Positions 30,978 to 63,276 of a stretch of DNA of 64,000 nt are shown here, one piece after another. Location: the NCBI RefSeq assembly GCF_900169365.1, contig NZ_FXZH01000006.1, forward strand, positions 1 through 64,000, written 5' to 3'. Both the position numbers and the translations under genes were made by a program. Source of the stretch: Brevibacterium sp. 239c. GTDB lineage: Bacteria > Actinomycetota > Actinomycetes > Actinomycetales > Brevibacteriaceae. Position 1 is the stretch's first letter. Each line of letters starts with the position of its first letter. Below the pieces are notes generated by a model that saw nothing but the letters and a program-made list of their open reading frames with translations, did not search any database and was not told where the DNA came from.

Positions 30978-31023
30978 AACGACAGAGGCGACCCGGGTTC
31001 CACCCCAAGTCGCCTCTGTCGTT
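30978..31023. terminator. Hairpin downstream of the BCCT transporter gene
   Basis: Fifteen-base arms (30978-30992, 31009-31023; AACGACAGAGGCGAC and its complement) with a 16-base loop, 17 bp after the BCCT stop codon on the minus strand and 120 bp before the aldolase start. Confidence 0.65.
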
Positions 31024-31040
31024 TCGGCAGTGCCGGCTGC

Positions 31041-39262: not shown

Positions 39263-40567
39263 ATGGCTGTTCATACGACTGATGTTCTGGTCATCGGTGC
39301 GGGTCCGACGGGGATCGGCGCCGCAGTCCGGCTTCGTGAAAAGGGCGTCGAACACATCGTCGTCGATTCCGCAGACCGGTTCGGCGGCATGGCCGCTTCG
39401 CACACGGACGACAATGGCTTCACGTGGGATCTCGGTGGGCATGTCATCCACAGTCATTTCCCGGAATTCGATGACGCTGTTGCGCGCAGCCGTGCTCGGA
39501 TGCGCGAGGTGGTGAGGAACGGTGCGGTGTGGATGTCCGGTGATGACATCAAATCATTCATTCCGACTCCGGTGCAGGCTCAGCTTGAATCCTGGCCCAC
39601 AGACCTCGAGCCGGACAAACCTGCTGCAAACCTGGCGGAGTACTACCGCAATACCTTCGGTCAGCGACTCACAGACACTTTCTTCACCGGCTACAACGAG
39701 AAGATGTGGACTGTACCTTTGTCGCAGGTCGATCATCAGTGGACCTCACTGCGCAGCGGAGGCAAGAGCCGAAACGTTCCGCAGATGGGTTTGGCTGACG
39801 ACTTTCGCCCCAATCAGGAGACTTTCCCCTACCCAGTCGGCGGCAGCGGCACCCTGTGGTCAGCGATCGTAGCCAATCTGGCAGATGCCAGTGCCTTTCG
39901 TCTCGGAGCTCATGTGGAGAGGATCGAACCTGAACTCCACCGAGCCCACTTGGCAAGCGGAGAAATCATCGCCTACCGTCACTGCATCAGTTCGGCTCCG
40001 GTGACCTGGCTCATCGACTCCCTGCCGCCGCAGGCGAAGCGAGATACTCTGCAGGCCAGTGCCCAGCTGGCGATCGGACTCGGGTTCAGAGGACAGGCAC
40101 CTGAGGTCCTCAGTGACAAGAGCTGGATCTACTGTCCGGACAAGTCCGTGCCGTGGTTTCGGGCAACAATGCTGTCCAACTACGATCCCCTCAATGCTGG
40201 TCAGGGGCGCTGGAACATCCTGCTCGAGGTCACCGGCAAGAATGGGGGTCCTGTCGATCCCGCTCAGGCCGTCGATGAGTGCCTGGCGGGATTCGCTCGG
40301 ATCGGAGCGGATCTGGATTCCATCGAATCGATCTGGACCCACCGCATCGATCGCGGCTATCCCATCCCCACTCTGGGCCGCGACGATATCTTGGAGTCCG
40401 CCGACGAGGACCTGAGATCACACGATATCTATAGTCGCGGCAGGTTCGGTGGCTGGCGGTATGAATCGTGCAACCAGGACTACTCCTACATGCAGGGCCG
40501 ACAGGCCGTTGACGCTATCTACGACGGCACCCCCGAGGCTGTCTACTGGCACCCTGAGCAGTTTTGA
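39263..40567 (+). CDS. FAD-dependent oxidoreductase of the protoporphyrinogen oxidase/UDP-galactopyranose mutase-like group
   Basis: The 434-residue protein begins with an FAD-binding Rossmann motif (VLVIGAGPTGIGAAVRLRE, then VDSADRFGGMA) and has the GGHVIHSH segment that places a histidine near the flavin in UDP-galactopyranose-mutase-like enzymes, a YNEKMW-x-V-P-L segment and an R-Y/F-G-G-W-R-Y-E C-terminal flavin contact. ATG 39263 follows GGAG by nine bases; GTG 39248 is an alternative. Relatives often sit in glycan clusters and are annotated as protoporphyrinogen oxidase or amine oxidase without proof. Its position at the edge of the glycopolymer locus suggests action on a sugar intermediate, but heme synthesis cannot be excluded. 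Confidence 0.75.
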   Translation: MAVHTTDVLVIGAGPTGIGAAVRLREKGVEHIVVDSADRFGGMAASHTDDNGFTWDLGGHVIHSHFPEFDDAVARSRARMREVVRNGAVWMSGDDIKSFIPTPVQAQLESWPTDLEPDKPAANLAEYYRNTFGQRLTDTFFTGYNEKMWTVPLSQVDHQWTSLRSGGKSRNVPQMGLADDFRPNQETFPYPVGGSGTLWSAIVANLADASAFRLGAHVERIEPELHRAHLASGEIIAYRHCISSAPVTWLIDSLPPQAKRDTLQASAQLAIGLGFRGQAPEVLSDKSWIYCPDKSVPWFRATMLSNYDPLNAGQGRWNILLEVTGKNGGPVDPAQAVDECLAGFARIGADLDSIESIWTHRIDRGYPIPTLGRDDILESADEDLRSHDIYSRGRFGGWRYESCNQDYSYMQGRQAVDAIYDGTPEAVYWHPEQF

Positions 40568-40604
40568 ATATGTCACCGATCCGCTGGTGAGGTCGGGCAC
40601 TGGA

Positions 40605-41069
40605 ATGTCAGCTGCGCGAGCACGGACGACCCGGATCCGCTTGGCCACCTGGTTTCTTCTCCTTTATGCCGCGGTGCTGGCCATCGTCCTGTTCTCTCCC
40701 ATACCCGTGGACAGTCTCTTCTCTTCAGGGCTCGACGATGGGCTCTCCTGGGCTCAGGCTCATGGTGCCCCGGGCTTCGTCGACTATGCGTTCGTCGAGT
40801 TCACAGCGAATATCCTGGCCTTCGTTCCGATCGGCTGCATCGGAGTCCTTGCCTTCGGTTCCCACCGGTGGGAGTGGGTCGTGCTCTTGGGCATCGTGGC
40901 CTCCGCCACGGTCGAACTCACGCAGGCCCTGTTTCTCTCCGCCCGCACAGCCAGCCTCGCCGATATTCTCGCAAACAGCCTCGGCGTGCTGGTCGGGGCG
41001 CTGGCGTGCTGGCTGTGGGGCCATAGGCGTGAAGGGACCGCAAAGAAGCGAGCGCAGTTCAGCTATTGA
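40605..41069 (+). CDS. VanZ-family membrane protein
   Basis: The 154-residue protein has four hydrophobic helices (LATWFLLLYAAVLAIVLFSP, FTANILAFVPIGCIGVLAF, WVVLLGIVASATVELTQALF, ADILANSLGVLVGALACWLW). Together these give the VanZ pattern, including the N-I-L-x-F-x-P-x-G and the E-x-x-Q-x-x-F...R-x-x-x-x-x-D-x-x-x-N-x-x-G motifs. VanZ gives low-level teicoplanin resistance, and family members are thought to alter the cell wall or lipid carriers. The start at 40605 is the first with a plausible upstream GAGG. The 3' end overlaps the convergent LuxR gene by 11 bp. Confidence 0.85.
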   Translation: MSAARARTTRIRLATWFLLLYAAVLAIVLFSPIPVDSLFSSGLDDGLSWAQAHGAPGFVDYAFVEFTANILAFVPIGCIGVLAFGSHRWEWVVLLGIVASATVELTQALFLSARTASLADILANSLGVLVGALACWLWGHRREGTAKKRAQFSY

Positions 41070-43320
41070 GGAAGCCGAGCAGCTGAGCCTGATCGACGAC
41101 CTCGGCTCTGCTCGTCACTCCGAACTTATGGTAAAGGGCGGAGAGACGATTCTTGACCGTGCCGGTGACTTGTTGGAGCTCAACAGAGATCTCCATGATC
41201 GACAATCCTTGGGCAAGGAGTCCGAGGAGCTTCGCCTCACCGTCGGTCAGCTGCGGCATCGACGCTTCATCCACCGAGATCGCTCCGACCTCGCGCAGTC
41301 GGAAGAAGAGATCATCCTTGCTGCGGAAGTATCCACCGAAGACCGCGAAAGCACGGTCCCACTCCTCCGCATCTGCGGTCAGATCAAGGAGACCAAGCCG
41401 ATCCGGTCTCGGGAGGGACGCGATGGGCAGCAGGGAATTCACCCAGATGGAAAGCCCAAGGGCCGTGAGGAACTCGGCACGTGCCTCGGCGGTCTGGCCG
41501 GTCCGCAGCAGCGCTGTCGCCTTCAGCGCCGCCAGCGATGCACGGCTCTGCGGAGTCAGATACTGATGGTAGAACCACTTGTCCGCCAACACGACCACAT
41601 TCTCATATCGGCCGGCGATGAGCTCCACCTGAACGCTGAGGACGATGCGCAGATCGGAGGCCACCGACATGTGCTCGAGCTCCGACTCGGCCCATTTCAG
41701 CTGGCCGAGCCCGATGTGGACCATGCTTCGGCTCGCTCCCAACAGGTCTCTGCCCTTGCCCGAAATCGAAGTGCTGTCGTGAGGTCTGCCGACGCAGTCA
41801 TTCGACAGCAGCAGTTCGGGAGGAGTGCTCGCGCCGAGGATCGCGATGCTGACGCTGATGACGGGAAGGTAGACCCACAGCGGGCCAAGGTTCGCACATG
41901 CGGCCAGCAGTTCGTATTCCTGCCTGGCCCGGTCCAGATCGAGCCGGTCGAGGGCACGCAGTGCAGCAGCGATGTGGGTTGCCGGGAAAACCATTTCACC
42001 GATGATGTTGGGCAGGCTGAATTCGTCGAACAGCCATTCCAGATGCCGATCGGCTCGTTCGTTGTCGCCGCTGACCGTCGCCACGAGTGCTGTCCACGCG
42101 CCAATCGCAGGCAGAAGGAAATCACCATCGACATGTCGCTCGTCGGCGACGAGTTCGAGTTCGTGCAGAATCGACAATGCCCGGCGCGGTTCGGACGAGT
42201 GGAACATTGAGATCGCGGTCAGGAGTCTGATGATCAGGAGGCTACGATGACCACCGTGCTCTCCCGACCACTGCAATCCTGCCTGCGCAGCCTGTGCATG
42301 ATCTCCCGACTGCGCCAGGCCGACGAGGCGACGGATCTTTCCGAAACAGCCAAGCGGGGACTCGGCCTCGTCCTGGGCCAAGTTCTGGGGTGGGCCGGGG
42401 GTGATGGTTTCGGAGAAGAAGCGCCGCATCCGACCGCTGCGAGACTCCTCCACGAGTGCATCTCGGGTCGTTTCGACCGTGATGACGTTGTTCTGACGCG
42501 TCAGCAAGCTGTCCGCGAGCGAAGACAGGGCGGACAATTCGGGTTCCTGCTCGAGTACCTGCGCGGGCAGACCTGAATAGGCTGCGCATACCGCGCGAGG
42601 GGCGAGGAGGAACATCGGCAGTCCGATAGTCTCCTGCAGACGCACGAGGACTGACCACAGGCCATTTCTTCGCGCCAGCTCGGTGACGTCGGCGAGGACC
42701 TGCGGATCGACGGACTGAGACTTTTCAAGATGATCGACCAGCGCTCCAGCGAGGTCGTCGACGACACTTGAATAGTTCTCCCATTCCGAGGCGCTGCGAC
42801 GAAGTGCCGCCGCCAAAAAGACAGGTACGTGCAGATACTTCCGGCCGGATTCTTCTCGGTCGAGGACGAGGATTCCTGCCATCTGCAGGCGCATGAGGAC
42901 CCCCTCCGCATCGTGGAGACTGCTGTCACCGAGGTCCAGCGAACGTATCGAGGAGAGGCTCAGCAGCGCGGTCGGCTTGGTGAAAGACGTCATCTGCGAT
43001 AGCAGGAAGGCAATCTTCTCATCGCTGTCAGTGAGCCCGAGCTCAGGAAGTGACGCCAGCTGGGCCACATAGTCAGCGAAGCTCGTCGAAGTCATATCCG
43101 CCGGCAGCTCGGTGTGTTCGGCGATCTCGAGCACCGTTCGGGTTAGGCTCTTCCAGCCGCCGGTGGCGTGGTAGAGCTCAGCGGCGAATTCGGCCCCTGA
43201 TCGGTCCGGGTGCGACCCGATTGCAGCCGGGTGAGCTGATCCGGCGAGACCGAGCTCGCGTACGTATTCCTCGGGGCTCCGGCTTCGGTCCGAGTTCGCG
43301 GCTCCTGCAAAGACGTTCAC
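41059..43320 (-). CDS. Large LuxR-type regulator without a visible ATPase site
   Basis: The 753-residue protein ends in a LuxR HTH (LTDGEAKLLGLLAQGLSIME, GTVKNRLSALYHKFGVTSRA). The first 690 residues are helical and Leu/Ala-rich and resemble the repeat region of MalT-like regulators, but I find no Walker A motif; the protein begins within what would be a post-ATPase segment (ATGGWKSLTRTVLEIAEHTE). It may sense a partner through its repeats. The start overlaps the LCP gene stop by four bases (ATGA), so it is cotranslated with the glycopolymer genes and is their last gene. Feedback control of the locus is inferred. Confidence 0.85.
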   Translation of the reverse strand: MNVFAGAANSDRSRSPEEYVRELGLAGSAHPAAIGSHPDRSGAEFAAELYHATGGWKSLTRTVLEIAEHTELPADMTSTSFADYVAQLASLPELGLTDSDEKIAFLLSQMTSFTKPTALLSLSSIRSLDLGDSSLHDAEGVLMRLQMAGILVLDREESGRKYLHVPVFLAAALRRSASEWENYSSVVDDLAGALVDHLEKSQSVDPQVLADVTELARRNGLWSVLVRLQETIGLPMFLLAPRAVCAAYSGLPAQVLEQEPELSALSSLADSLLTRQNNVITVETTRDALVEESRSGRMRRFFSETITPGPPQNLAQDEAESPLGCFGKIRRLVGLAQSGDHAQAAQAGLQWSGEHGGHRSLLIIRLLTAISMFHSSEPRRALSILHELELVADERHVDGDFLLPAIGAWTALVATVSGDNERADRHLEWLFDEFSLPNIIGEMVFPATHIAAALRALDRLDLDRARQEYELLAACANLGPLWVYLPVISVSIAILGASTPPELLLSNDCVGRPHDSTSISGKGRDLLGASRSMVHIGLGQLKWAESELEHMSVASDLRIVLSVQVELIAGRYENVVVLADKWFYHQYLTPQSRASLAALKATALLRTGQTAEARAEFLTALGLSIWVNSLLPIASLPRPDRLGLLDLTADAEEWDRAFAVFGGYFRSKDDLFFRLREVGAISVDEASMPQLTDGEAKLLGLLAQGLSIMEISVELQQVTGTVKNRLSALYHKFGVTSRAEVVDQAQLLGFLNS

Positions 43321-44327
43321 AGCTGTTGGTCTCCCGCTTCGTCGATGTAGTCGGCAAGCGAGTCCTCGGCGAATGCCTGTCGCAGATCGGCGAGACCCTC
43401 GTCATCGACAACGAGGTACTGCTGTCCGTCATCGGCTTCTCCCGCGCCCGCAATCGGCGCAGTGGCGTAATCGACGGCTGCGGACGAACCTCCGCTGAAG
43501 TCTCTGGCCACATCGATGATGAGAGCAGAGTCGAGCCCCTTGTCAGTCGTGACGTACTGGCTGAAGTTCGTGATCGAACGAGCGAGCTTCGCCGGGTGGA
43601 GAAGCAGATCTGGCGACATCAGCTTCGAACTGAAGTTCGCGAGGAACTCCTGCTGATTGCGGACTCTCTGCAGGTCTCCGTCGGCGAATTGCTTCCGGGC
43701 CCTGACGAATTCGAGGGCAGCTGCACCGTCGAGATGGTTCGGGCCCTTGACGAAGGTGCTCGAGCCGTTGGTGAAGGCAGTGTCCGAATACACGTCGACC
43801 CCGCCTACCGCATCTGTAAGTTCCTCGAGTCCGGCGAAGTCGACGATCGCGACGTGGTCGATGCCGGCATCGATGAAGTCGGAGATGGTCTCGATCGACA
43901 ATGCCAGTCCCCCGTATGCGGCTGCTGCGTTGATCTTCGCCCGGCCGTACCCCTTGATCTCCACCCAGGAGTCACGTGGAATCGAGATCACTTGGAATCC
44001 CTGCCGGTCAGAGGGGATATGCAGCACCATGATGGTGTCGGTGCGAAATCCCCTCGCCGAGGTGTAGTCGACGTTCTCGAGCCGCGAATCCGATCCGAGA
44101 AGGAGGATGTTCATCGGAGCATTCGGCGCTGTCTGATGTCCGGACCCCGGGGCCCTAGGGGCGGGCGCGAGCTCTTCGGCGATGCTCGGGTCTTCGACCA
44201 GTGTCCGCTTGTCGTTCCAGGCCGAGGTCACGTACCACCCGTAGGCTCCCACCGTGGCCGCAGCCAGCAGGAGCAGGAGGGTGAGGAGCCCGCCCGTGAT
44301 CTTCCAGGCGTTCGCAATGCCAGTCAT
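43317..44327 (-). CDS. LCP (LytR-CpsA-Psr) family wall glycopolymer ligase
   Basis: The 336-residue protein has a short cytoplasmic start, one transmembrane helix (ITGGLLTLLLLLAAATVGAY) and an external LCP domain. Conserved stations are LLLGSDSR, the D in RTDTIMVLHIP, the substrate arginines in VISIPRDSWVEI with GRAKINAAAAYGG, and HLDGAAALEFVRARKQF with DLQRVRNQQEFL. LCP enzymes transfer undecaprenyl-linked teichoic acid or capsule chains to peptidoglycan outside the membrane. It lies three bases after the glycosidase gene and overlaps the LuxR gene, so it probably attaches the polymer made by this cluster. Confidence 0.94.
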   Translation of the reverse strand: MTGIANAWKITGGLLTLLLLLAAATVGAYGWYVTSAWNDKRTLVEDPSIAEELAPAPRAPGSGHQTAPNAPMNILLLGSDSRLENVDYTSARGFRTDTIMVLHIPSDRQGFQVISIPRDSWVEIKGYGRAKINAAAAYGGLALSIETISDFIDAGIDHVAIVDFAGLEELTDAVGGVDVYSDTAFTNGSSTFVKGPNHLDGAAALEFVRARKQFADGDLQRVRNQQEFLANFSSKLMSPDLLLHPAKLARSITNFSQYVTTDKGLDSALIIDVARDFSGGSSAAVDYATAPIAGAGEADDGQQYLVVDDEGLADLRQAFAEDSLADYIDEAGDQQL

Positions 44328-44330
44328 CTG

Positions 44331-45368
44331 TCATCCATTCGGGTAGTAGTGGGCGATGGCGGCGGCGACATCTGACACGGATGACTTCGGGGTCCCATCG
44401 ATGTTGAAGAGACCGAACCCGTCGTCCTGGTACGCACCGTCGTCGCGCAGGCGATAGACGAATACTGGGTCTGCCCTGGTTCTCGACAATTCGCCGATCG
44501 TCTTCGTCAGAGATTCGACCTGCTGATTCTCTGTGTACCGTCCGAGCCCTGTCTGGAGCCCGAACTCTCCCACGGACACAGCCATACCCTGGGCTTTCTC
44601 CAATCGTTCGATCCGATCGGGCAGAGACTTGATCGCAGGGGCGGAGAGGACGGGATAGAGATCGATAGTGCAGATGTCGAGATGGCCGGAGACAGCGGCG
44701 AAGAACCGCAGCCATTCCTTCTCCTTCTCATCATCGACCGGATAGCCACTGGCACTCGTCGTGATCCGAACGTGCGCTGCGTGCTGATGAATCGCTGCTC
44801 GTGCCACTCCCAGAGCTTCATCGAGATCGGAATAGTAGGCCTCGCGGCTGCCCTTGATGCCAGCTGCGGTCCGGAAGTCGATATCGCTGACCTCGTTGTA
44901 CACCTGCCACACCGCTACCGATGAGCCGTAACGCTGAGCCAGCAGCCCCCAGTACCGCTTCATCGTTGTCAGATACTGTGGGGTGTTCCGCGTTGCCGGA
45001 GCACCATCGACGGTGAGCAGGCAGATGCTCATGCCCATGGATTCGACGAAGGCAATGGCTTTGTCATAGATCTTCAGCCGCTCGGGATCGAAGTCCACTC
45101 GCCCTTCGACCGACCACGACCTCACGATCTGAAACCCGACGACGGGGAACCGCACCCAGGCCGCGCCAAGTGCCTTCACCTCTCTGACGTCTCGGACGAA
45201 TTCCTGCAATCCGGCTTTGGGTGAGCTCACGGTGAAGCCGAACCTACCGGCCATGGCCCTGGTCGGTTGGCTTCCGCTGACTACTGAGATCGCTGCGACC
45301 GACACGAACAGGCCGGTGCCGATCATCCAGCGACGCCGTGAGATCGAGGATGTCGTCTTCACAGCCAC
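44331..45368 (-). CDS. Secreted glycoside hydrolase-like protein (clan A fold)
   Basis: The 345-residue protein has a Tat-like signal (SISRRRWMIGTGLFVSVAAI) with cleavage near 38. The mature part reads as a (beta/alpha)8 glycosidase: W-V-R-F-P-V-V, the acid/base Glu in VWQVYNEVSD at about 155-164 and the nucleophile Glu in VSVGEFGLQTG at about 270. Clan A enzymes cut or rearrange beta-linked glycans. It overlaps the GT2 gene by ten bases and is followed by the LCP gene. A role in trimming or releasing the polymer of this locus is likely; the exact glycosidase family cannot be given. Confidence 0.8.
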   Translation of the reverse strand: MAVKTTSSISRRRWMIGTGLFVSVAAISVVSGSQPTRAMAGRFGFTVSSPKAGLQEFVRDVREVKALGAAWVRFPVVGFQIVRSWSVEGRVDFDPERLKIYDKAIAFVESMGMSICLLTVDGAPATRNTPQYLTTMKRYWGLLAQRYGSSVAVWQVYNEVSDIDFRTAAGIKGSREAYYSDLDEALGVARAAIHQHAAHVRITTSASGYPVDDEKEKEWLRFFAAVSGHLDICTIDLYPVLSAPAIKSLPDRIERLEKAQGMAVSVGEFGLQTGLGRYTENQQVESLTKTIGELSRTRADPVFVYRLRDDGAYQDDGFGLFNIDGTPKSSVSDVAAAIAHYYPNG

Positions 45369-46351
45369 CGCTCCTTGAGGCTGCCGCGCAGGCGGTAGGC
45401 ATAACTGTGAGTTCGCGGGGCCACCCGCGCTAGGGCCATCGAGAAGCCCCTGGCAGCCTGACGGGTCCTCAGCGCATCAACGACATGTGAGAATCGGATC
45501 TCGTTGCGACACCAGAAGTAAACGTCCGACTTCAGCCGGGGCGAGGAGGTGTCACCGGCTGCCTTGCTGAGCATGTAATTCAGCTGTGTCCACCGCATGC
45601 GATGGATGGCCTCCACCGCCTCCCGACCGATGTACATGGTTCTCAGTGCGCCCTCGAAGTCGTCAAGGACCGTGGCCAAGTCCCAGATGCGTTCACTCAG
45701 CTGTGCCGTCACCGAGTCAGAGAGGAGGAAATAGTTGTACATGGGGCGGGGCTCGAAGCTGACCGTGGACATCGTGGCGAGCAGATTGACGATGAAGCCG
45801 AGGTCGCTGTAGGTGTTGGGCTTCGCCCGCACATGGTTGGGTCGGAAGAGGTGGTGCTGGTTGGGGTGGACCCGTCCGTCGATAAAGTGCCGCAGGGCTC
45901 GTCCGGCGGGCACCGGTGAGGTCGTAGCGACGATCCCGTGAACGCTCACGGAACCTGTGGGCTCGAACGTCTTATGCGGAAGAACGACGAAATCGGAGTT
46001 CTCCGCCTCACCTCGTGCAACGAGGACCTCGATGCACTCAGGGTCGAGGGAGTCGTCGGAATCAAGGAACAGCACCCATGTGCTTGCGCTCATGTCCAGA
46101 GCATGGTTCGTCACAGCTGCATACCCCTGATTCCGGTGAAGTCGGTGCCCGAAGAAGCGGGGATCGTCCGGCATGAGCTCAAGCATCTCCTCGTTTGAAC
46201 CGTCATCGATGACGAGAACGCAGAAGTCAGAACTCGTCTGGGCCTGCAGTGATTTCAGCGCGCGAGGGAGTGTGGCGGCGCTGTTGTACGCGGGAACGAC
46301 AACGGTGACCTTGTAGGTGCGTGTGCCCTCAAGAATCTGGTCCGGACTCAT
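45359..46351 (-). CDS. Glycosyltransferase family 2
   Basis: The 330-residue protein has a GT-A fold start: VTVVVPAYNSAATLPRALKS, the nucleotide-binding D in VLVIDDGS, NQGYAAVTNHAL and the metal-binding VLFLDSDDSLDPEC. The rest resembles the C-terminal region of capsule and teichoic-acid GT2 enzymes. It adds one sugar from a nucleotide donor to a lipid-linked acceptor at the inner membrane face. I prefer ATG 46351 with GAAG upstream; a GTG at 46366 overlaps the flippase gene. Donor and linkage are unknown. Confidence 0.9.
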   Translation of the reverse strand: MSPDQILEGTRTYKVTVVVPAYNSAATLPRALKSLQAQTSSDFCVLVIDDGSNEEMLELMPDDPRFFGHRLHRNQGYAAVTNHALDMSASTWVLFLDSDDSLDPECIEVLVARGEAENSDFVVLPHKTFEPTGSVSVHGIVATTSPVPAGRALRHFIDGRVHPNQHHLFRPNHVRAKPNTYSDLGFIVNLLATMSTVSFEPRPMYNYFLLSDSVTAQLSERIWDLATVLDDFEGALRTMYIGREAVEAIHRMRWTQLNYMLSKAAGDTSSPRLKSDVYFWCRNEIRFSHVVDALRTRQAARGFSMALARVAPRTHSYAYRLRGSLKERWL

Positions 46352-46355
46352 TGCT

Positions 46356-47666: not shown

Positions 47667-48361
47667 TCGAGGCCCCAGACGTCGAACCTGCTGACGCGCC
47701 GGACCGTGTGGAACGATTCGGCGAATTCGAGATTCACCTGGCTGCCGCGGAAGATGGCCAGAGATTCGAGGGCCCGCAGCGACCGCGGTCCCGGGTAGTC
47801 CTGCACCTGAGAGGCATAGGCGGCGAAGGACGACAGTTTGGCATCGATGTGATCCGAGACGTCGACGAACCAGTCGGGGACGAAGTTCGCTTCGATGTGC
47901 GGCGCATTCCAGTGGGTCTCCGAAATCGTCTCGTACAGTGCCACAGCAATGATCCCGGCGCCGGCCCCCAGCGGTCGGGTAGCGACCATGGCCGCTTCGA
48001 ACACGGCTTTGTGGTCGAGATGACGATCGGGAAACGGCGCCAGCACGAGATCGGGCCGCAGACGGTCGATGGCTCTCTGGATGCCGGAATTGAGCTCGGC
48101 CACGCCCATGCGAGCCAGCTCGACTGACGGATGCGGGAGGAACTCGGTGCTCGCGACACCGAGGAGTTCGTGCGCTCGCTGTGCCTCGTCCCGGAGCAGT
48201 CCCGCAGTGTCCGCCGGATACAGGGGCGGTTTGTCCTGTGATGCCACCAGGACGTGGACTTCGCATCCGTGTGCGCTGAGAGCGGCCATCGTACCGCCTG
48301 CACCGAGGACCTCGTCGTCGGGATGTGGTGCGATGACGAGCGCGCGTGAGAATCGGTTCAC
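47663..48361 (-). CDS. PIG-L family (LmbE-like) deacetylase
   Basis: The 232-residue protein has the zinc-binding IAPHPDDEVLGAGGTMAAL near its N-terminus and the third ligand and partner in FPDRHLDHKAVF at about 105-116, both diagnostic of PIG-L/LmbE deacetylases. These remove N-acetyl groups from GlcNAc-containing compounds such as GlcNAc-PI or mycothiol precursors. Here it overlaps the aminotransferase gene by four bases and the flippase gene by four bases. It therefore probably deacetylates a sugar of the repeat unit before export. It is unlikely to be MshB because of this context. Confidence 0.88.
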   Translation of the reverse strand: MNRFSRALVIAPHPDDEVLGAGGTMAALSAHGCEVHVLVASQDKPPLYPADTAGLLRDEAQRAHELLGVASTEFLPHPSVELARMGVAELNSGIQRAIDRLRPDLVLAPFPDRHLDHKAVFEAAMVATRPLGAGAGIIAVALYETISETHWNAPHIEANFVPDWFVDVSDHIDAKLSSFAAYASQVQDYPGPRSLRALESLAIFRGSQVNLEFAESFHTVRRVSRFDVWGLE

Positions 48362-55252: not shown

Positions 55253-56418
55253 TGCCCGTTCACCTCGGCGGTGGGCGCCGGCCCGGTGACGGACAGGAGC
55301 GCGGCCTCGAACTCGGTGATGTAGTCATTTCCGGAGACCGAACGCGCCGCACGTGCCATTGCTGATTCCCGTCGACAATCCTCACTCGTCGCGACGATTC
55401 GGCTGGCGGCACGGGCATATGCTTCGGCGGAGATCTCGCTGCTTCCTCCCGCCGATGAGTCCATTTCCGGACTGCTCGGAACCCGCAGATGGATCGCATT
55501 GGTGCCGTCCTCGGTATAGCTGCGAATCGCTCCGACGGGAGTGACAACCGGTATGATCCCCAGCGCGAGGGCCTCGCGAACTGACATCGCAAGTCCCTCG
55601 AAGTCGCTGAGCTGAAGAAAGAAGCGGGCTCCGTCGGCATGAGCGAGGATTTCCTCGGGTGTCGCCGCGCCATGCCAGGTCACTGGCAAGCCGCGCTCAG
55701 CGGCGGTTTCGAGGATCGAGTTGAGCAGCCCACTGCTCGGCGCGATGATCTCGAGGCTGAATCCGCCTGGGCGCAGCCTCTCGAGCGCGCAGAGCAGGTC
55801 GAGCGAACGATCCAGCCTCTTCTGTGCGGCCGCCCGCCCCCAGTAGATGAGGCGGACCGGCTGCGCCACGTCCCGGCTGTCCCGTTGAGGCACACGAGAT
55901 TCGCCATTGTCTGTCCCGGTCTCGTCACCGGCCCAGCCACGTGCCAAATGCAGGAGTGCCGAGTCCGGGCAGACCACCTCAGCGTGGGACCGAAGGGGCA
56001 TCGGGACGAGAGCGTCGAGCGCGGCCGCGGAATCGCAGAGGATGCGATCAGCGAATCGGAACGCCACACGGTGGACGAGCCGGTCGATGAGGTGCGTGTA
56101 CCGCGAGTTGTGGATGAAGAGGACCCACGAGGTGTGCGGATGCCACAGCCGATTCAGACCGCCGACGATGACCGAGCGCCACAGGGAACTGACGACAACG
56201 TCGGGGCTCATCCGATGCAGCCGGATGAGCATTTCGATCACCGTTCGAGGCGAGTTCACGCCCGAGCCGGCGAAATCCGCTGAGACCCCGGCCGGGTCGA
56301 TCTGCTCGAAGGCGAGGACCTGATATCCGAGAGCAGTGGTGCTGCTCGACATCAGCTCGGCGGCGGTTTCGACTCCCCCGATGCCCGTTGTGTGGATGAG
56401 ATGCGCGACCTGGATCAT
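55249..56418 (-). CDS. Glycosyltransferase (GT4-like, GT-B)
   Basis: The 389-residue protein starts QVAHLIHTTGIGGVETAAEL, a GT4-like acceptor-domain loop, and has a C-terminal donor domain with RLIYWGRAAAQKRLDRSLDL, VTWHGAATPEEILAHADGAR and FEGLAMSVREALALGIIPVV, where E-x(7)-E is in the last segment. It transfers a sugar to the lipid-linked intermediate, probably second after the initiating transferase encoded immediately upstream, whose stop it overlaps by four bases. Donor sugar is unknown. Confidence 0.88.
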   Translation of the reverse strand: MIQVAHLIHTTGIGGVETAAELMSSSTTALGYQVLAFEQIDPAGVSADFAGSGVNSPRTVIEMLIRLHRMSPDVVVSSLWRSVIVGGLNRLWHPHTSWVLFIHNSRYTHLIDRLVHRVAFRFADRILCDSAAALDALVPMPLRSHAEVVCPDSALLHLARGWAGDETGTDNGESRVPQRDSRDVAQPVRLIYWGRAAAQKRLDRSLDLLCALERLRPGGFSLEIIAPSSGLLNSILETAAERGLPVTWHGAATPEEILAHADGARFFLQLSDFEGLAMSVREALALGIIPVVTPVGAIRSYTEDGTNAIHLRVPSSPEMDSSAGGSSEISAEAYARAASRIVATSEDCRRESAMARAARSVSGNDYITEFEAALLSVTGPAPTAEVNGQ

Positions 56419-57788
56419 TGCGCACCTGCGGCTCGCACAACGGCGCCGAAGGTGCGCAGAAGGATTGTGAGGTCGTTCTTCAGGTTCCAGTTGTGTGCGT
56501 AGTAGAGGTCGAACTCACGGGCCTGGGCCCAACCGAGGTCGGAACGTCCGCTGACTTGCCACAGGCCCGTCATCCCGGGACGAACACCGAGGCGGTGGTG
56601 GTCTGATCCCTGGTACAGAGCCACCTCGCCGTCCCGCTGCGGGCGGGGGCCGACAAGACTCATTGAGCCGCCGATGACGTTGAACAGCTGCGGAAGCTCG
56701 TCGATCGAGGACTTGCGCAACAGCTGCCCGAGGCGGGTGATCCGTGGGTCGGACGTCACTTTGAACAGTGGCTGAGTTGCAGTCCCCTGGGATTTGAGCA
56801 GTTCCTTGAGCTGTACATCTGCGTTGACGATCATCGAGCGGAACTTGATGATTCTGAAAGGGCGACCATCGAGACCGATTCGCTCCTGAGTGTAGAAGAC
56901 CGGACCGGGCATGGAGATCTTGATCGCGATCGCAACGACCAGCAGAGGGACGGAGAGGATCAGGACCAGGGCGCTTGCCGTCACAACGTCGAACATCCTC
57001 TTCAGGACTCTCACGAGCAGTACGGGTCGCGACGGTGAGATGAGCAGTCCTGAGCTGTCCGTGGCACTTCGGGCGTGGACACGGGCAGGGTCGAGCCCAA
57101 GGTCGAAGAGGGGAAAGTAGAGTTCGACATCACGGTTACGCAGTTCCCAGCAGAGCCGTCGCAGCACCTCCGCATCGATGCCGAAGGCGAGCTCGACGAG
57201 TTCGACATCACGACGCCTCACCTCTGCGAGGACTGCCGAGACGAAGGCATCGCTGTCCGACTTCGTTCTCCGGCTGACGACGAGGTCACTGGTGGTCGGG
57301 TTTCGGCCGCCGATCGCCTCGGTGACGATGCGAAGTGTGCGTTTGGGCAGAAGCGCTGGGATCAGTACGCGCACACCGGCAGTGGCACCCGCGGTCCCCC
57401 ACAGCGCCAGCAGGAAGACATTGTGGTCCTCGCCGGTGACCGAGCCGACGGACATGATTTCGTTCAAGGGGGTGAATGCGGCGATGAAGGCGACAGTCCC
57501 AGTGACGATGACAGCCGACAGCAATGGGATTCTGACTGAGCGGGAGAGCGTTCCCAGGGAGCTGCTGCCGCCGGAGAGGGCATCGAGCAGACACCACAGG
57601 AGGATCCACACGGCCTCGGGGCCGTGCGTCAGTGAGAAGACAAGGGAGGTGGAGAAGATCGTGATGACGACCTGTACGGAGATCGCGAGGAACATCCGCC
57701 GCCGACTGGCGAACACGGTGTCGATCTGCGCAGCGTAGGTGGCCGCTTGATAGGTGATTGCCCCCTGGGACAATGCGCTCGTGGTCAT
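56415..57788 (-). CDS. Initiating polyprenyl-phosphate sugar-1-phosphate transferase
   Basis: The 457-residue protein has four N-terminal helices and a soluble middle part, then the bacterial sugar transferase domain: VLKRMFDVVTASALVLIL, the re-entrant helix, GPVFYTQERIGLDGRPFRII with KFRSM, the catalytic LRKSSIDELPQLFNV and GPRPQRDGEVALY. It moves sugar phosphate from a UDP-sugar to undecaprenyl phosphate and begins repeat-unit synthesis. ATG 57788 follows GAGGA; a start at 57881 would add unsupported residues. It is the first biosynthetic gene of the long operon, so a promoter should lie in the 353-bp gap upstream. Confidence 0.93.
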   Translation of the reverse strand: MTTSALSQGAITYQAATYAAQIDTVFASRRRMFLAISVQVVITIFSTSLVFSLTHGPEAVWILLWCLLDALSGGSSSLGTLSRSVRIPLLSAVIVTGTVAFIAAFTPLNEIMSVGSVTGEDHNVFLLALWGTAGATAGVRVLIPALLPKRTLRIVTEAIGGRNPTTSDLVVSRRTKSDSDAFVSAVLAEVRRRDVELVELAFGIDAEVLRRLCWELRNRDVELYFPLFDLGLDPARVHARSATDSSGLLISPSRPVLLVRVLKRMFDVVTASALVLILSVPLLVVAIAIKISMPGPVFYTQERIGLDGRPFRIIKFRSMIVNADVQLKELLKSQGTATQPLFKVTSDPRITRLGQLLRKSSIDELPQLFNVIGGSMSLVGPRPQRDGEVALYQGSDHHRLGVRPGMTGLWQVSGRSDLGWAQAREFDLYYAHNWNLKNDLTILLRTFGAVVRAAGAQ

Positions 57789-58141
57789 CTTACTGTCCTC
57801 GGAGACAGCTTGGCCGGTCGCGCCGAGAGCATGGGAGAAAAGATCATGTTTCCCATCCTGGCTACTGCGAATTCGCATCATCAGGTGGTCATTACGGGAT
57901 CATTCCTTCGTTCATACTCAACTCGGAGGAAGGACGCATGCGCCCCTACTCGATTCAGGCCAGGACTGCGCAATTCGACCACTCAGTTCCCGAGTCACAA
58001 CGCTTCGCACTACTCATGATGTGGATCGAAGGCTGCGAGCCTTGTGCCTCCTCGGTCGCAGGCTGGAGGCGTCCCGAGCGCAGACTGGAGGCGTGCAGGC
58101 CCCAACCGTCCCGGCCGGTTTCAGACCTGACCTATCGCTGT
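57789..58141. other. Upstream region of the glycopolymer operon
   Basis: A 353-bp gap between the regulator gene at 58142 and the initiating transferase. It has no supported gene; plus-strand reading frames here have poor composition. A 12-bp palindrome TGCGAATTCGCA lies at 57866-57877, about 80 bp upstream of the operon start. I see no convincing -35/-10 pair. Confidence 0.4.
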
Positions 58142-60739
58142 TCAGACCAATCGTTGTTCGGCTCGCAGCTCGTGCAGAGCCCGACCAGCCTGCTCACGAC
58201 GCGTGATGCCCAATTTCTGGAATAGTCTGTAGGTGTGACCTTCAACGGTCCTCACTCGCACGCCCAGCTTCTCTGCGATCTCCGCGTTGGTGCTGCCGGC
58301 AATGATGAGGTTGCAGATCTGACGTTCTCGCGCAGTGAGTTTCGTCGGTGCGCTGGTCCGTGTCGCGGATGCTTCCTCACCAGCACTGAAGTGATCTGCC
58401 AATCTCCGGCAGAGAGCTGCCAGGTCAGGCATGATCTTGTCTTCGGCATCCGCAATGTCACGCAGGGCTGCGCCGTCACGGCCACGCAGGGCAGACCCGA
58501 GACTTCCGAGCAGGCGAAAGTCGCGCCCAGTACCGCGCCCTGCCAGCACGCACATCTCTTCGGACTCGACGACGTCGAAGTGTCTGAAGAGCATGAGTCT
58601 GATGAGAGCAGCGAGCCCGAACGAGCCGTCGTCCATCGCCTCGGCGAGCAGTTCGTTGAGCTTCTCGACCCAGACGGCCTCACCGGTGCGCAGACCTCTG
58701 GCGACGTAGAGGATGATCACCGCACGCCGGTACTCAATATACGGGCCGCGCACTGGCAGAGCGTCGAAACGCGACTCGTAGTGGGCGGCCATATCGACAT
58801 TGCCTCCCAGGACAGAGACATACGCGGCCTGCGCGATGGCCATTGCCAGGAAGGCCGTCTGGTTGCAATGTTCGAGCGCTTCCACAGCAGCATGAGTGGA
58901 CCGCGTGGCCTCGGGCAAGGCCCCGTCCTCCGTATTGATGCGGCTCCAGACGAGGTCGCTGGGACCGCTGCGGGCGGCGAGGTAGGCGATGTCATTGCTC
59001 GGCAGCTCATTGAGGATCCTCTTCGCCCTCTCCGTGTCGCCGTAGCCGGCGAGGGCACTGGCTCGGGTCATGGACAGAATCATCGGCCCTGTGCCCACGG
59101 CGTAGTTCCGCCCTGATTCATGATCGAGCAGTTCAAGTGCTTCCACGTTCTCGCCCTTCTCGATCTTCCGGCTGGCCAGTGCCACGGTCAGCAGCACTCG
59201 GAGCGAGTCGGACAGCCGCTCATCATGGATGGCCTCTGCGAGGAATTCTTCATCGGTCGCTGCCACCAGCAGCGATCTGGTGCCGAATCGATCGACGATG
59301 TTCCGAGCCGTCGCTCCATCGATTCCCTTGCACCCTATGTCCAGGCAGCGATCAGCGCCGGTCCCACTCGCGCCGTCCTCGGCTTCAAGACCCTCGACAC
59401 GGTCGAGGGCGATGCGGAATTTGTCCAGGCTCACGGTCGGTGAGGTGCGGTCGAAGTCCCTGTAGACCCAGACCACGAAGGCTTCGACGATGATGTCGAC
59501 GCAGCACGCCTTCTGCACTGCTTGGGCAAGGACATCTAAACCGAGCGCAGCCTGGTTCACCTCACAGTAGAGACGACCAAGATCGCAGAGTTCGTGTGCC
59601 TCCATGGAATCTGTCGGCACTTCGATGAGCATCCGCAGCGCCCGCTGCCATTCACCGATGCGCGCGGCCACGCGGGCGGCGTCAATGAGGTCTTGCACGT
59701 GGACGTCGGCGCCACATCCTAGGGCCCAGTCCATGCGCAGCATGAGTGACCGATCGGATGGGATCGAGGTGTCGCCGGAGACGACGAAGTCGTACATCCG
59801 TCTGCTTCGACCATCAGGAATCGTGTAGCGGATCGTCTCGGACCTGTGGTTCTCCACAGCGGCGTAGATTCGCCCCTGCCTATGTTTGAGAAGGATCTCG
59901 CCCGCGGCTACGAGGCTATCGGCGGCTTCTCCGAGGTCGGCGGTGAGCATGTGTTCGACGGTGATCTCACCTGCGAGGACGACGAGTTCAAGGGCTTCTC
60001 GTGTCGGGGCTGTGTACTCTTCGAGTTCGATGCGGGTGACGTCCCGGGCGCGTTCGTCGTAGTCGATATCCCGGCCGTCGAGGACCCAGACACCCTGGAG
60101 GTCGTAGAATCGCTGGGCCCGAGTCGTGTAGCGAAGAAGCTCGAGCATCGTCCCCGGCACCCTGCCGGAGTGGAATTCGATGATATCGAGTACCCCATGT
60201 GAGACGATACCGCCGAGCTGGTGCTCAACCATTTCAGCGTAGGAGTCCGGATCAAGAGCGTCGAGAATGATGTGGTCGAGGATGCCGTCCGCAACAAGGT
60301 CATCGAACGGATCGTCCTGCCCGCTTGGGTCCCTGCGCCGTGTGGCAACAATCTTGATATCGCCGTCATTGGACAGCTGGGACAGCACGTCCAGGCTGCG
60401 GCGGTCGATTCTGTGGGCATCATCGACGAAGATCACCGGCTTCGGCTGATCTCCTGCCAGCACAGACACAACACGGTGGAGCAGATCGGCCGGGTCTTCA
60501 TCGAGGTCCACGGACAACCCGAATACACCGAAATCGATTGCCTCGAATACCCGGTCACCGCGCAGCCACAGTTCCGTACCGCCGCGACGATGATGGACCA
60601 AGCTTGACAGAAGCGTCTTTCCAGAGCCCATCTCCCCTTCGATGAGAATTCCACCCGATGATGAGTCGCGCAGGGAGTTCTCGATGGTTTCGGTCTCACG
60701 ACTGCGACCGAAGACGATGGGCTCACCGTGGTCGCTCAC
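58142..60739 (-). CDS. Large LuxR-type regulator with P-loop ATPase domain (second of a pair)
   Basis: From GTG 60739 the protein has 865 residues. An AAA/STAND-type ATPase follows a short start: IVFGRSRETETIENSLRD, Walker A IEGEMGSGKTLLS near 30-42, Walker B KPVIFVDDAHRID. A helical repeat region of about 550 residues follows, then the LuxR HTH (LTARERQICNLIIAGSTNAE, RTVEGHTYRLFQKLGITRRE). GTG overlaps the stop of the partner gene in GTGA. Regulators of this architecture (MalT, LAL group) bind a small inducer and ATP, then activate promoters. Its place before the glycopolymer operon suggests control of it. Confidence 0.88.
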   Translation of the reverse strand: MSDHGEPIVFGRSRETETIENSLRDSSSGGILIEGEMGSGKTLLSSLVHHRRGGTELWLRGDRVFEAIDFGVFGLSVDLDEDPADLLHRVVSVLAGDQPKPVIFVDDAHRIDRRSLDVLSQLSNDGDIKIVATRRRDPSGQDDPFDDLVADGILDHIILDALDPDSYAEMVEHQLGGIVSHGVLDIIEFHSGRVPGTMLELLRYTTRAQRFYDLQGVWVLDGRDIDYDERARDVTRIELEEYTAPTREALELVVLAGEITVEHMLTADLGEAADSLVAAGEILLKHRQGRIYAAVENHRSETIRYTIPDGRSRRMYDFVVSGDTSIPSDRSLMLRMDWALGCGADVHVQDLIDAARVAARIGEWQRALRMLIEVPTDSMEAHELCDLGRLYCEVNQAALGLDVLAQAVQKACCVDIIVEAFVVWVYRDFDRTSPTVSLDKFRIALDRVEGLEAEDGASGTGADRCLDIGCKGIDGATARNIVDRFGTRSLLVAATDEEFLAEAIHDERLSDSLRVLLTVALASRKIEKGENVEALELLDHESGRNYAVGTGPMILSMTRASALAGYGDTERAKRILNELPSNDIAYLAARSGPSDLVWSRINTEDGALPEATRSTHAAVEALEHCNQTAFLAMAIAQAAYVSVLGGNVDMAAHYESRFDALPVRGPYIEYRRAVIILYVARGLRTGEAVWVEKLNELLAEAMDDGSFGLAALIRLMLFRHFDVVESEEMCVLAGRGTGRDFRLLGSLGSALRGRDGAALRDIADAEDKIMPDLAALCRRLADHFSAGEEASATRTSAPTKLTARERQICNLIIAGSTNAEIAEKLGVRVRTVEGHTYRLFQKLGITRREQAGRALHELRAEQRLV

Positions 60740-63276
60740 AGCTGATCGCCCCAAGAGGTGATCGCTTCTCGCAGCTCGCGGCGATTGGCCACTTGCAGGC
60801 GCCGGTAGATTCTGCTCAGATGCCATTCGATGGTTCGCGCGGACAGATGCTGCACGGCACCGAGCTCCTGACTGCTCTGCCCGGCCATGACTCCCTCGAC
60901 GAGCTGCCGTTCGAGGTCGGAGAGCACCGTCTGCAGTCTCGTCCCAGAGGCGCTGAATCTGATCCTTCGCTGACTGTTGCCGATGAGGATGCGGGCCTCC
61001 TTGGCGACCTGCTGATCCTGGGTGTCGATGGCACGAGACTGAGCGAGTTTGGCCAGGTCGGAACACAGAACCATGGCGCCGAACGCGGATGCGCCTCTGC
61101 TGGCTGCAATGAGCGCGGACGGCGATCCGTCGGCCATCGCGGCAGAGATGATGCCTGCGAGTCGACCTGGCTTTCCGTCGACTTCAGACGCGGCTCCGCT
61201 CAGCTCGACGATCGCGGCTCGATGCCCGAGGCAGGCCGCTTCCAGCCAGGCCGAGGCCGCCAATGTTGTCGCGCCGAGGGTCCTCGCCGTACCGCCGAGC
61301 GCATACAGACTTTCGGCAGCCTGTTCCGGCTTGGTCAGTGCCAGCGTCTGGAGCTGGAACAGTGAAGCTTCGAACTCCAACCAGTAGGAATAGTCGTCGC
61401 CCTCAGGCGGTTGAGCTTGGCTCGGGCGCCTCTCCTTAGGCACATCGCCCAACAGCGTACGGGCATAGTCAATGGCTGCGTTGATGCCCTCAAACCCGAT
61501 GTCTTCAACAGTCGTCTTGGTCCGCTCCAGAACGGCCAGGGCCCGGGCTGGGTGTCCGGTGCGCATGTCAATCAATGCGCCGGTGAAACCGGACAGTTGT
61601 GGACGCCCCTTGTTCCAGCTCCTCGTTTCGGCCCAGTTCAGCGCTGCTCGGGCTCTCTCCCAGTCGGCCGCGACGTACCTGGCGATGAAGAACTGGGGTG
61701 CCGCGTCCTCGCGTTCCAGGCTCGTCATGCCTGGCAGACCGAACATCAGTTCAGCCTGCTCTGTGAACTTCAACCCTGCTTCCACTTTGCCGGTGAGAAC
61801 CGAAGCCGTCCCGAGCACCGCGCAGGCACGGAGCCGGTGGCGGGTCAGGCACGAGTGATCCCGATAGACCCGGTCAGCTCTCTCGATCGCCTCGGCGAAC
61901 CGACCACCTTTGAGGTCGAACCGTGCAAGGGTGACGTCGAATCTGCCTTGATCAGCCGTGGTGTCGAAATGCTCGCGCAACCAACCGGTGCGAAGACGGT
62001 CGGGTTCGCGCGGGTCGGTCAGTCTCATGTCCATGACCCTCACGCGCGACAACAGCTGTGGACTCAGCTCTTCCCAATGCTGTCCTACGAGATCAAGCAC
62101 ACGGTCGAAGGCTCTGTTCGCCGCTCTGATGTTGCGTCTGCCTTTTTCAGCGCGGACAGTCTCGAGGAGCAGGTCGACCGGTTTCACAAAGGCGTGCTCA
62201 GCGAGTTCTGCCGCTCCCGAGTAGTCTCCTTCACGATTTGCCCAGGCCACAGCCTCGAGGATTTTCTCCGCTGGCTGGGCATATCCCAAATTCGCCCCCC
62301 AGGACAGGTACCCGAACAGAGCCTGTCCTTCCATCGTTTCACTATCTGCGACTTCGCTCAGCCCCTTCCAGAGGGACAGTGTGTGAGAGGGCCTGACCCG
62401 AGACCGCATTGACGCGGCGATCACGGGTTCGACGATTCTCACTGAGGCGTGCCTAGCCCTGGACATCTTGATGATCCCTGCTTCGACCAGAGAATCGAGC
62501 CCGTCGGCAGAGCACAGTTGGATGAGAGTCTCATAGTGGACTGCTCCTGCCATCGCGATCGTTTCGAGCACTGGCCGGAGCTCGGGGTCGATGTTCCACA
62601 GAATACGGTCCGTGGTCCGCAGCCGCTCGTGTTGGAAGAGGACGTGACTGAGAAGAAGCGGGTTCCCTCCGGTCTCTGCATGCAATTGGGCGACAGACCG
62701 ATCTTCGAATGCGTTGGATCCCGAGGTTTCGGCGAGTGCTGCCACGGTCGCTTCGTTGAGGCCGCTGAGGTCGACGCGGATGAGTCGTCCCGACAGCCAG
62801 AGGCTCGTTGCGAGATCGACGGGCGGGCGAATCGATTCAGCTGCGATGAGGAGTCTGACTCTCCTCGCCACGGCCAGTTGGGTCAGCACTGACAGAGAGA
62901 CCGCATCGACGAGATTCGCATTGTCGATGAGGACGATGGGGGTCGCTTCGGGATACCGTGCTTTCAGTTGTCTGCCGATTGACGACAAAGCCGTACCGGC
63001 CCCGACTTTCGAACTGCTGCCCGATTGCGAGAGGAGGATCTCAAGGATTCCGAGATCCCGACCGCGCAGTGGCTCTGAGCCGCGAAAACGCAGAACGGGA
63101 GTGTCTTTATCGATGCGCGCCAGTGCCGTGTTCATCATCGTGGTTTTCCCGATTCCGGCAGCGCCGATGACTAGCGCACCGAATCTGTCCGGGTCCGTGA
63201 GGGACGCGACCACCGCTTCCACTTCGTCTGTGTATCCGAGGATCTGATGCTGGACCGGTCGAAGGGCAGTTGACAT
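60736..63276 (-). CDS. Large LuxR-type regulator with P-loop ATPase domain (first of a pair)
   Basis: The 846-residue protein from ATG 63276 has QILGYTDEVEAVVASLTDP, Walker A IGAAGIGKTTMMN at about 38-50, Walker B ATPIVLIDNANLV and sensor-like VRLLIAAES. A repeat region of about 600 residues precedes the C-terminal HTH (VMAGQSSQELGAVQHLSART, IEWHLSRIYRRLQVANRREL). It is a LAL-type regulator like its downstream neighbour, with which it shares architecture but little close sequence. An upstream TTG at 63312 is less likely. The two are translated from one message and may act as a heteromer. Confidence 0.88.
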   Translation of the reverse strand: MSTALRPVQHQILGYTDEVEAVVASLTDPDRFGALVIGAAGIGKTTMMNTALARIDKDTPVLRFRGSEPLRGRDLGILEILLSQSGSSSKVGAGTALSSIGRQLKARYPEATPIVLIDNANLVDAVSLSVLTQLAVARRVRLLIAAESIRPPVDLATSLWLSGRLIRVDLSGLNEATVAALAETSGSNAFEDRSVAQLHAETGGNPLLLSHVLFQHERLRTTDRILWNIDPELRPVLETIAMAGAVHYETLIQLCSADGLDSLVEAGIIKMSRARHASVRIVEPVIAASMRSRVRPSHTLSLWKGLSEVADSETMEGQALFGYLSWGANLGYAQPAEKILEAVAWANREGDYSGAAELAEHAFVKPVDLLLETVRAEKGRRNIRAANRAFDRVLDLVGQHWEELSPQLLSRVRVMDMRLTDPREPDRLRTGWLREHFDTTADQGRFDVTLARFDLKGGRFAEAIERADRVYRDHSCLTRHRLRACAVLGTASVLTGKVEAGLKFTEQAELMFGLPGMTSLEREDAAPQFFIARYVAADWERARAALNWAETRSWNKGRPQLSGFTGALIDMRTGHPARALAVLERTKTTVEDIGFEGINAAIDYARTLLGDVPKERRPSQAQPPEGDDYSYWLEFEASLFQLQTLALTKPEQAAESLYALGGTARTLGATTLAASAWLEAACLGHRAAIVELSGAASEVDGKPGRLAGIISAAMADGSPSALIAASRGASAFGAMVLCSDLAKLAQSRAIDTQDQQVAKEARILIGNSQRRIRFSASGTRLQTVLSDLERQLVEGVMAGQSSQELGAVQHLSARTIEWHLSRIYRRLQVANRRELREAITSWGDQL

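Follow-up and report, generated by a model that had tools for sequence, protein, structure and literature searches.

Organization of the glycan locus

The first 64,000 nucleotides of contig NZ_FXZH01000006.1 of Brevibacterium sp. 239c (forward strand, referred to below as the window; host genome 4.38 Mb) contain a gene cluster for a surface glycan that is accompanied by three large LuxR-type regulators, here called LAL1, LAL2, and LAL3, and that was compared with the corresponding sites of relatives in the genus Brevibacterium. The whole unit (41059-63276) lies on the minus strand. Read in that direction, LAL1 (60736-63276) and LAL2 (58142-60739) come first, followed by a 353-bp spacer and a run of 13 genes (57788-41059) in the order wbaP, GT4 glycosyltransferase, wzy-like, GT4 glycosyltransferase, wzz, pglF/capD-like, degT/pglE-like, PIG-L deacetylase, wzx, GT2 glycosyltransferase, glycosidase, lcp, and LAL3, in which neighbours mostly overlap by a few base pairs. 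Two flanking genes on the plus strand serve as anchors of the site. On the right this is the start of a conserved acyl-CoA dehydrogenase gene (R1, 63760-64000, running past the window end), which is present in 55 of 57 genomes of the genus, and on the left an ABC-2-type permease gene (ABC2, 37381-39102). No tRNA anchor was found for the island, and the window holds no Rfam elements.

A sequence-only reading of the window had extended the unit from 39263 to 63276. Its left limit, set by the gene of an FAD amine-oxidoreductase, has to be moved. This gene (39263-40567) and an open reading frame of 154 aa (40605-41069) lie on the plus strand between ABC2 and LAL3 and lack an equivalent at the same place in the relatives that were compared. 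Judged by the comparison, the FAD gene is outside the polymer unit, and the spot is a small variable slot adjoining the island. In genome G040 and in genomes with cassette type D (see below), a different gene of 540-580 aa (F27) is found there.

Polymer genes and predicted product

The same reading had described a complete Wzx/Wzy-style pathway, and the Pfam and NCBIfam matches bear this out for the initiating transferase, the three glycosyltransferases, the flippase, the length regulator, and the LCP protein. The parts that it named are real, but a dehydratase, a DegT aminotransferase, and a PIG-L deacetylase had gone unlisted. The pathway would start with a WbaP-like polyprenyl-phosphate sugar-phosphate transferase of 457 aa (56415-57788; PF02397, E = 1e-62; EPS_sugtrans), followed by a GT4 glycosyltransferase (55249-56418; PF00534, PF13692), a Wzy-like polymerase candidate of 392 aa (54074-55252), and a second GT4 glycosyltransferase (52888-54102; PF13692, E = 3e-22). 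The polymerase candidate has no Pfam or NCBIfam match and was assigned from its hydropathy (about nine hydrophobic segments) and its place, which is the same in G040, G044, and G018. The chain-length co-polymerase Wzz (51449-52891; PF02706, E = 2e-6; weak match to TIGR01006) carries a C-terminal ParA/BY-kinase-like domain with a Walker A motif without lysine (GVGGVGNQL), which sets it outside the BY-kinases.

A membrane UDP-sugar 4,6-dehydratase of the PglF/CapD type (49482-51452; PF02719, E = 4e-95) has WlaL (PglF; 5bju, E = 1e-61) as its best PDB match, and the adjacent DegT/PglE-like sugar-nucleotide aminotransferase (48358-49485; PF01041, E = 9e-84) matches 7b0m, 1o61, and 4ztc (the last with E = 5e-62). 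Because the two enzymes match PglF (WlaL) and PglE-like structures, the polymer likely contains a 4-amino-4,6-dideoxy sugar. The pair recalls the PglF/PglE enzymes of the Campylobacter UDP-bacillosamine pathway, which provide the best PDB match of the dehydratase and are among the best of the aminotransferase. Unlike in that pathway, no PglD acetyltransferase is found in the locus (the rest of the genome was not searched), and a PIG-L/BshB1-like de-N-acetylase of 232 aa is encoded instead (47663-48361; PF02585, E = 2e-22). This protein had at first been labelled an acetyltransferase from its PglF/PglE neighbours, which is ruled out by the PF02585 match.

The Wzx flippase (46356-47666, 436 aa; PF01943, E = 4e-26; about ten hydrophobic segments) starts at 47666. 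A 747-aa fusion given by the longest open frame, from 48599, was discarded because the gene caller places the deacetylase and the aminotransferase there. A GT2 glycosyltransferase follows (45359-46366; PF00535, E = 2e-25). The secreted glycosidase of the sequence-only reading is present as a secreted protein with an RRRW Tat-like leader and conserved NE and E residues (44331-45362), while its assignment as a TIM-barrel glycosidase of a clan GH-A-like type comes down to weak family matches (PF00150 at E = 1e-3, below the cut-off; profile match to PslG at E = 0.03). The LCP glycopolymer transferase (43317-44327; PF03816, LytR_cpsA_psr, E = 4e-41; one N-terminal hydrophobic segment) suggests that the polymer is attached to the wall in this strain. 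The lcp gene is found in the window and in type D loci and is absent from the loci of types B, C, and E and from that of G040, whose cassette is of the same type as that of the window, which tempers the wall-attachment reading.

Distribution in the genus and exchange of the cassette

Orthologs of LAL2 (E < 1e-100) and LAL3 (E < 1e-75) were sought in the 57 Brevibacterium genomes. The sequence-only reading had held that regulators standing apart from the glycan genes in relatives would speak against a common system. LAL2 and LAL3 were found in the identical 33 genomes, never singly, and neither occurs in the other 24. The reading thus withstands its own test, which supports the regulators as part of the glycan locus. 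The surroundings were fetched for 30 of the 33 island-bearing genomes, which gave 29 readable loci. In every one of these, LAL3, the cassette, LAL2, and LAL1 follow each other on one strand and the frames of LAL1 and LAL2 overlap, so that the layout is conserved across genomes, and because of this conservation a chance origin of the arrangement can be dismissed. The right flank is nearly always R1 and the left flank usually ABC2. Named carriers include B. aurantiacum ATCC 9175, B. casei CIP 102111, B. linens ATCC 9172, B. epidermidis NBRC 14811, and B. sandarakinum DSM 22082. The first of these has a cassette of the same type as the window.

Where the site is empty, both regulators are absent. 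R1 and ABC2 are then separated by 234 bp in G054 and 189 bp in G037, and in G043, G031, and G016, R1 lies directly beside the next gene out (F32). In G022 a scar remains between ABC2 and R1, namely a 192-bp fragment of the LAL3 helix-turn-helix (HTH) with 66% identity (contig C63:17219-17410, L121). The site is thus fixed, and the segment of 20-30 kb enters or leaves it as a whole. A conserved CACTTGTGAG-type sequence upstream of LAL1 was rejected as an element of the island; because a similar CCCACTTGTGG adjoins R1 in G054 and G037, where the site is empty, it was assigned to the R1 side.

At least five cassette types occupy the site, sharing little beyond CapD, DegT, and a PF02397 protein. 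Type A is represented by the window and G040. Types B and C encode FemAB-like proteins, a low-molecular-weight phosphatase, and a Wzz protein with a ParA-like kinase domain (with ParA/AAA_31 matches in one locus of each type), to which type B adds an EpsG-family protein (PF14897) and type C an Orn/DAP decarboxylase; types D and E are further distinct cassettes. The combination of a kinase-like Wzz with the phosphatase belongs to other cassette types, and the window locus has no such phosphatase.

Across 27 loci, mean pairwise identity is lowest for LAL3 (46%), followed by LAL2 and LAL1 (51% each), the fourth LuxR protein F12 (52%, see below), CapD and DegT (62% each), ABC2 (72%), R2 (86%), and R1 (95%). 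Between cassette types, the identity of LAL3 is only about 37%. When the flanks are controlled for, LAL identity tracks the cassette type (partial rank correlation 0.66-0.78, reached in 0 of 300 permutations), whereas its correlation with flank identity is low (r = 0.07-0.32), which shows that the regulators are inherited together with the cassette.

Architecture and divergence of the regulators

LAL1 (846 aa) and LAL2 (865 aa, its start overlapping the LAL1 stop by 4 bp) are STAND/LuxR regulators with AAA_16/AAA_22 matches and Walker A motifs (P-loops GAAGIGKT and GEMGSGKT, respectively), which places both among the LAL proteins; in LAL1, whose orthologs are found in 29/29 readable loci, the ATPase is followed by a helical sensor and a C-terminal GerE HTH. 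LAL3 (41059-43320, 753 aa, its start overlapping the lcp stop) consists of a winged helix, a helical solenoid, and an HTH. The GerE/LuxR HTH (PF00196) is matched in all three with E values from 2e-7 to 7e-13. Two ATPase-LuxR regulators upstream and a third LuxR protein without a visible ATPase, as first described from the sequence, are thus recovered, and the P-loop is intact in 26/30 LAL1, 30/30 LAL2, and 0/30 LAL3 orthologs. LAL3 begins inside the STAND module, past the nucleotide-binding part, and its start cannot be moved upstream to include that domain because the open frame is only 780 aa long. Its sequence marks LAL3 as STAND-derived and not as a LAL proper.

The AlphaFold model of LAL3 (pLDDT 82) comprises a winged-helix-like region, a long helical solenoid, and the HTH, and that of LAL1 (pLDDT 79) an extra alpha/beta P-loop domain; the top Foldseek match of both is the STAND protein 6mfv. 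Types B to E encode a fourth LuxR protein (F12, about 895 aa), in which a P-loop is present in 5/27 proteins. Conservation is highest in the HTHs, in which each of the four LuxR families has a recognition helix of its own. In a quick tree of 51 proteins, LAL1-like and LAL2-like proteins fall into separate groups, the LAL1 group extending outside the genus, and LAL3 is joined with LAL4, although several branches of this tree are long or weakly supported. LAL4 is an ATPase-less LuxR protein of 805 aa encoded about 14 kb beyond the window (L055:14029-16446; contig C31:78029-80446, plus strand). Similar proteins occur in many genomes of the genus, and LAL4-like proteins may have been the source of LAL3. 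Three more GerE-type HTH genes of response-regulator size are located in the left third of the window (3226-3372 and 10760-10927 on the minus strand, 16585-16749 on the plus strand). A role of the LALs as a defence system was considered and rejected, as the PADLOC matches are confined to the HTH region.

Three regulators for one polymer had been called striking, but the comparison does not support a peculiarity of this genome. Four LuxR proteins are encoded in most Brevibacterium loci, and tandem arrays of two to five are found in other genera. On the sequences compared, multiple LuxR regulators at such loci are a theme of the genus and the order.

Homologous loci at other positions

G044 and G018, two Brevibacterium genomes without the island, carry the whole type A cassette elsewhere in the genome, with the gene order preserved and identities mostly of 32-61%; in G044 the distance to R1 is about 30 kb. 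Immediately upstream of these cassettes stand LAL1- and LAL2-like genes (about 29% identity), but LAL3 and lcp are missing. In G044, an almost perfect palindrome with a length of about 60 bp (GTCGAGTGGTCATGTTCGGTCGAATACTCG plus complement), which holds a TACTC motif, stands before the LAL pair, upstream of the LAL1-like gene L171:15164.

In another family of the same order (f6), tandem arrays of two to five LAL1-like/LAL2-like genes are commonly found downstream of prs. Among 24 such loci, a PF02397 transferase gene is directly adjacent in 10 and within seven genes in 15, and in G413 and G230 sugar-nucleotide genes occupy that place instead. A hairpin of about 70 nt with a TGAGACC loop, the 3' bulge CCCCAGCC, and six pairs with double compensatory changes was observed 50-270 nt upstream of the wbaP-like gene after the arrays and sometimes before the array (among others, L178:8765-8841, L179:3963-4039, L180:5437-5513, L182:2316-2392, L186:12077-12153, L188:8485-8678, and L165:7851-7927). 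A covariance model detected it in 48/100 f6 genomes with one to five copies each, and there was no Rfam match at the gathering score. This covarying hairpin may represent a new cis-regulatory RNA. It was also sought in the Brevibacterium window, where the best match (30971-31033, E = 0.003) was not convincing.

A candidate operator

Upstream of wbaP lies an operator-like array of three RTGAY units with an 11-bp period (ATGAT CCCGTA ATGAC CACCTG ATGAT; 57877-57903, minus strand). The best array reaches at least 13/15 in 29/29 loci, and it always precedes the cassette gene that follows LAL2 or, in type D loci, capD; its consensus is CCaGTgaTGACC.....G.TGAC.GAGTAgTGAC. RTGAC pairs were tested at spacers of 0-20 on the island strand of the 29 loci, comparing 57.7 kb of intergenic with 766 kb of genic DNA. 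RTGAC-N6-RTGAC, which corresponds to the 11-bp period, gave 52 intergenic versus 2 genic matches, and other spacers gave 0-5 matches except for 17 bp (two periods) with 21; these counts, like those of GAGTAGT below, are inflated by the relatedness of the genomes. In a scan of the 57 genomes, the triple RTGAY pattern was found within the island in most island-bearing genomes and sporadically elsewhere. A recurrent GTGACGTCACAATGACGAYGAARTGAT outside the island in G001, G008, G012, G013, G032, G033, G034, G050, and G051 (G008 being island-free) matches the triple-repeat pattern but is probably unrelated.

The motif GAGTAGT, which forms part of the repeat unit, is found in the LAL2-wbaP spacer of the window (58009-58015, minus strand), with further [CT]GAGTA matches at 57947-57952 and 57915-57920. 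In the genus, it occurs at 2.95/kb in the spacer between LAL2 and the cassette, at 0.030/kb in genes, and not at all in intergenic DNA outside the island. The 11-bp repeats were also looked for in f6, where they were not found; GAGTAGT was found instead, at 1.01/kb after the LAL array versus 0.028/kb in genes and 0.082/kb in other intergenic DNA. Since the factor common to both families is the LAL1/LAL2 pair, we infer that GAGTAGT is a candidate LAL half-site. Surface switching, which had been proposed from the sequence, gains no support, since no invertible or simple-repeat element was found near the promoter, and a phase-variable or invertible promoter was dropped as a candidate. The switch that is visible is that of the whole cassette between strains.

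Proposed mechanism and alternative explanations

Taken together, the locus is probably a horizontally exchanged surface-glycan island with dedicated MalT/IniR-like regulators that act on the conserved repeats. In the compared loci, LAL1, LAL2, and LAL3 are inherited and lost with the cassette, and both the repeats and GAGTAGT motifs are kept upstream of the leading cassette gene or of capD, independently of what the cassette encodes. By analogy, LAL1 and LAL2 are most likely dedicated activators of the MalT/IniR type, with LAL3 as an ATPase-less partner. MalT oligomerises on its inducer and ATP and binds promoter sites cooperatively (PMC10427625), and in mycobacteria the STAND/LuxR regulator IniR responds to envelope stress by way of trehalose (PMC5760070). 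LAL1 and LAL2 would, as MalT and IniR, rest in an ADP-bound closed form, and their helical sensor may bind a partner protein or a small molecule linked to the metabolism of envelope sugars. In the ATP-bound form they would oligomerise and bind the phased repeats cooperatively, leading to activation of the cassette. LAL3, which is encoded last in the unit, would not be able to cycle alone in the absence of an ATPase and probably serves the LAL1/LAL2 assembly as a feedback or adaptor subunit, either joining or capping it. The polymer would be undecaprenyl-linked and probably begun with, or contain, a 4-amino-4,6-dideoxy-N-acetylhexosamine from the PglF/PglE-like enzymes; it would be flipped by Wzx, polymerised by Wzy and Wzz, anchored by LCP, and trimmed by the secreted glycosidase.

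Several observations weigh against this interpretation. The genomes are related, and the counts are not independent. The LAL1 P-loop is broken in 4/30 genomes, and the global TM-scores of the LAL structure matches are low (about 0.2). The array of the window follows the consensus less strictly (RTGAY), and in its own genome two-unit matches are only about twice as frequent as the control (43 versus 22). No RTGAC array was found in f6, G044, or G018, and the repeats could be the site of another protein. Although their cassettes differ, G000 and G042 share LAL1 (78%) and LAL2 (72%), which speaks against a strict link of the pair with a single chemistry; this exception suggests that recombination has occurred at a point between LAL2 and the cassette.

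Direct repeats of 11 bp are typical binding sites of OmpR-family regulators, and read on the other strand the array (GTCAY N6 GTCAY) has a PHO-box-like spacing. It is possible, if unlikely, that a housekeeping OmpR/PhoB-type response regulator controls the cassette from these repeats and that the LALs bind elsewhere or act indirectly, which would also fit the lack of visible repeats upstream of LAL1 and in f6, G044, and G018. The triple repeat is, however, present in the island of most island-bearing genomes and only sporadic elsewhere, unlike the sites of a global regulator, and GAGTAGT in the same spacer is common to f6, with which the shared factor is the LAL1/LAL2 pair.

A rather improbable reading is that the four LuxR proteins (LAL1, LAL2, LAL3, and F12) assemble into a heteromeric sensor-helper switch of an NLR-like kind. 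Its STAND partners without ATPase and its rapidly diverging sensor regions would sense an envelope insult (e.g., phage attack or interrupted lipid-linked glycan assembly) and turn the surface glycan of the strain on or off, as a regulated, exchangeable surface-defence module across Micrococcales. It is quite improbable that the LALs are merely linked to the cassette through recombination of the segment between conserved flanks and regulate other genes (e.g., the flanking ABC transporter or acyl-CoA dehydrogenases). Exchange between the flanks is evident, but the flank genes persist without LALs in island-free genomes, the LAL pair also stands ahead of the same cassette where this is located elsewhere (G044 and G018), LAL arrays occur near PF02397 genes in another family, and the conserved repeats stand before cassette genes only. 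Finally, LAL3 and the fourth LuxR protein could be seen as decaying, functionless STAND remnants on account of the P-loop missing in 30/30 LAL3 and 22/27 F12 proteins and the low identity of LAL3 between types, but this is very improbable given the long intact frames in 30 genomes, the HTH as the most conserved part, and the co-occurrence of LAL3 with LAL2 in 33/33 genomes.

Relation to known systems and significance

Exchangeable Wzx/Wzy loci between fixed flanks are known from the pneumococcal cps, Klebsiella K, and Acinetobacter KL loci. The Brevibacterium island shares with them the fixed site, the swappable cassettes, the set of phosphoglycosyltransferase, glycosyltransferases, Wzx, a Wzy candidate, and Wzz, and the empty and variant sites in relatives, but differs in its three to four STAND/LuxR-type regulators, which are passed on together with the cassette and show faster divergence than its enzymes. 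The LAL regulators of actinomycete antibiotic clusters are likewise large, cluster-situated LuxR-HTH proteins with an N-terminal ATPase, whereas here the target would be a surface-glycan locus, several regulators stand together, and LAL3 lacks the ATPase. MalT of E. coli and IniR of mycobacteria have the same architecture of ATPase, helical sensor, and LuxR-type HTH, and in IniR STAND sensing is linked to envelope sugars (PMC5760070); both act singly, whereas here pairs or sets with different recognition helices are found. The SARP-LAL PimR binds three repeated 11-bp units (PMC5930380), but does so through its SARP domain and without a LuxR HTH. In the searchable literature, which leaves most subscription journals out of reach, no earlier description was found of glycan loci framed by LALs or of a capsule island in Brevibacterium. 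The island is real and conserved and is built from known building blocks.

The surface-glycan loci of gram-positive actinobacteria are poorly mapped, and Brevibacterium species are bacteria of cheese rinds, skin, and the environment. What emerges for this genus is a polymorphic island for which at least five cassette types and the empty site are known, together with a conserved candidate operator and regulators that are passed on with the cassette. The data raise the testable question of why a coat locus carries its own fast-evolving STAND switches, ATPase-less members included, and offer a tractable paralogous set for the study of how STAND activators cooperate on DNA.

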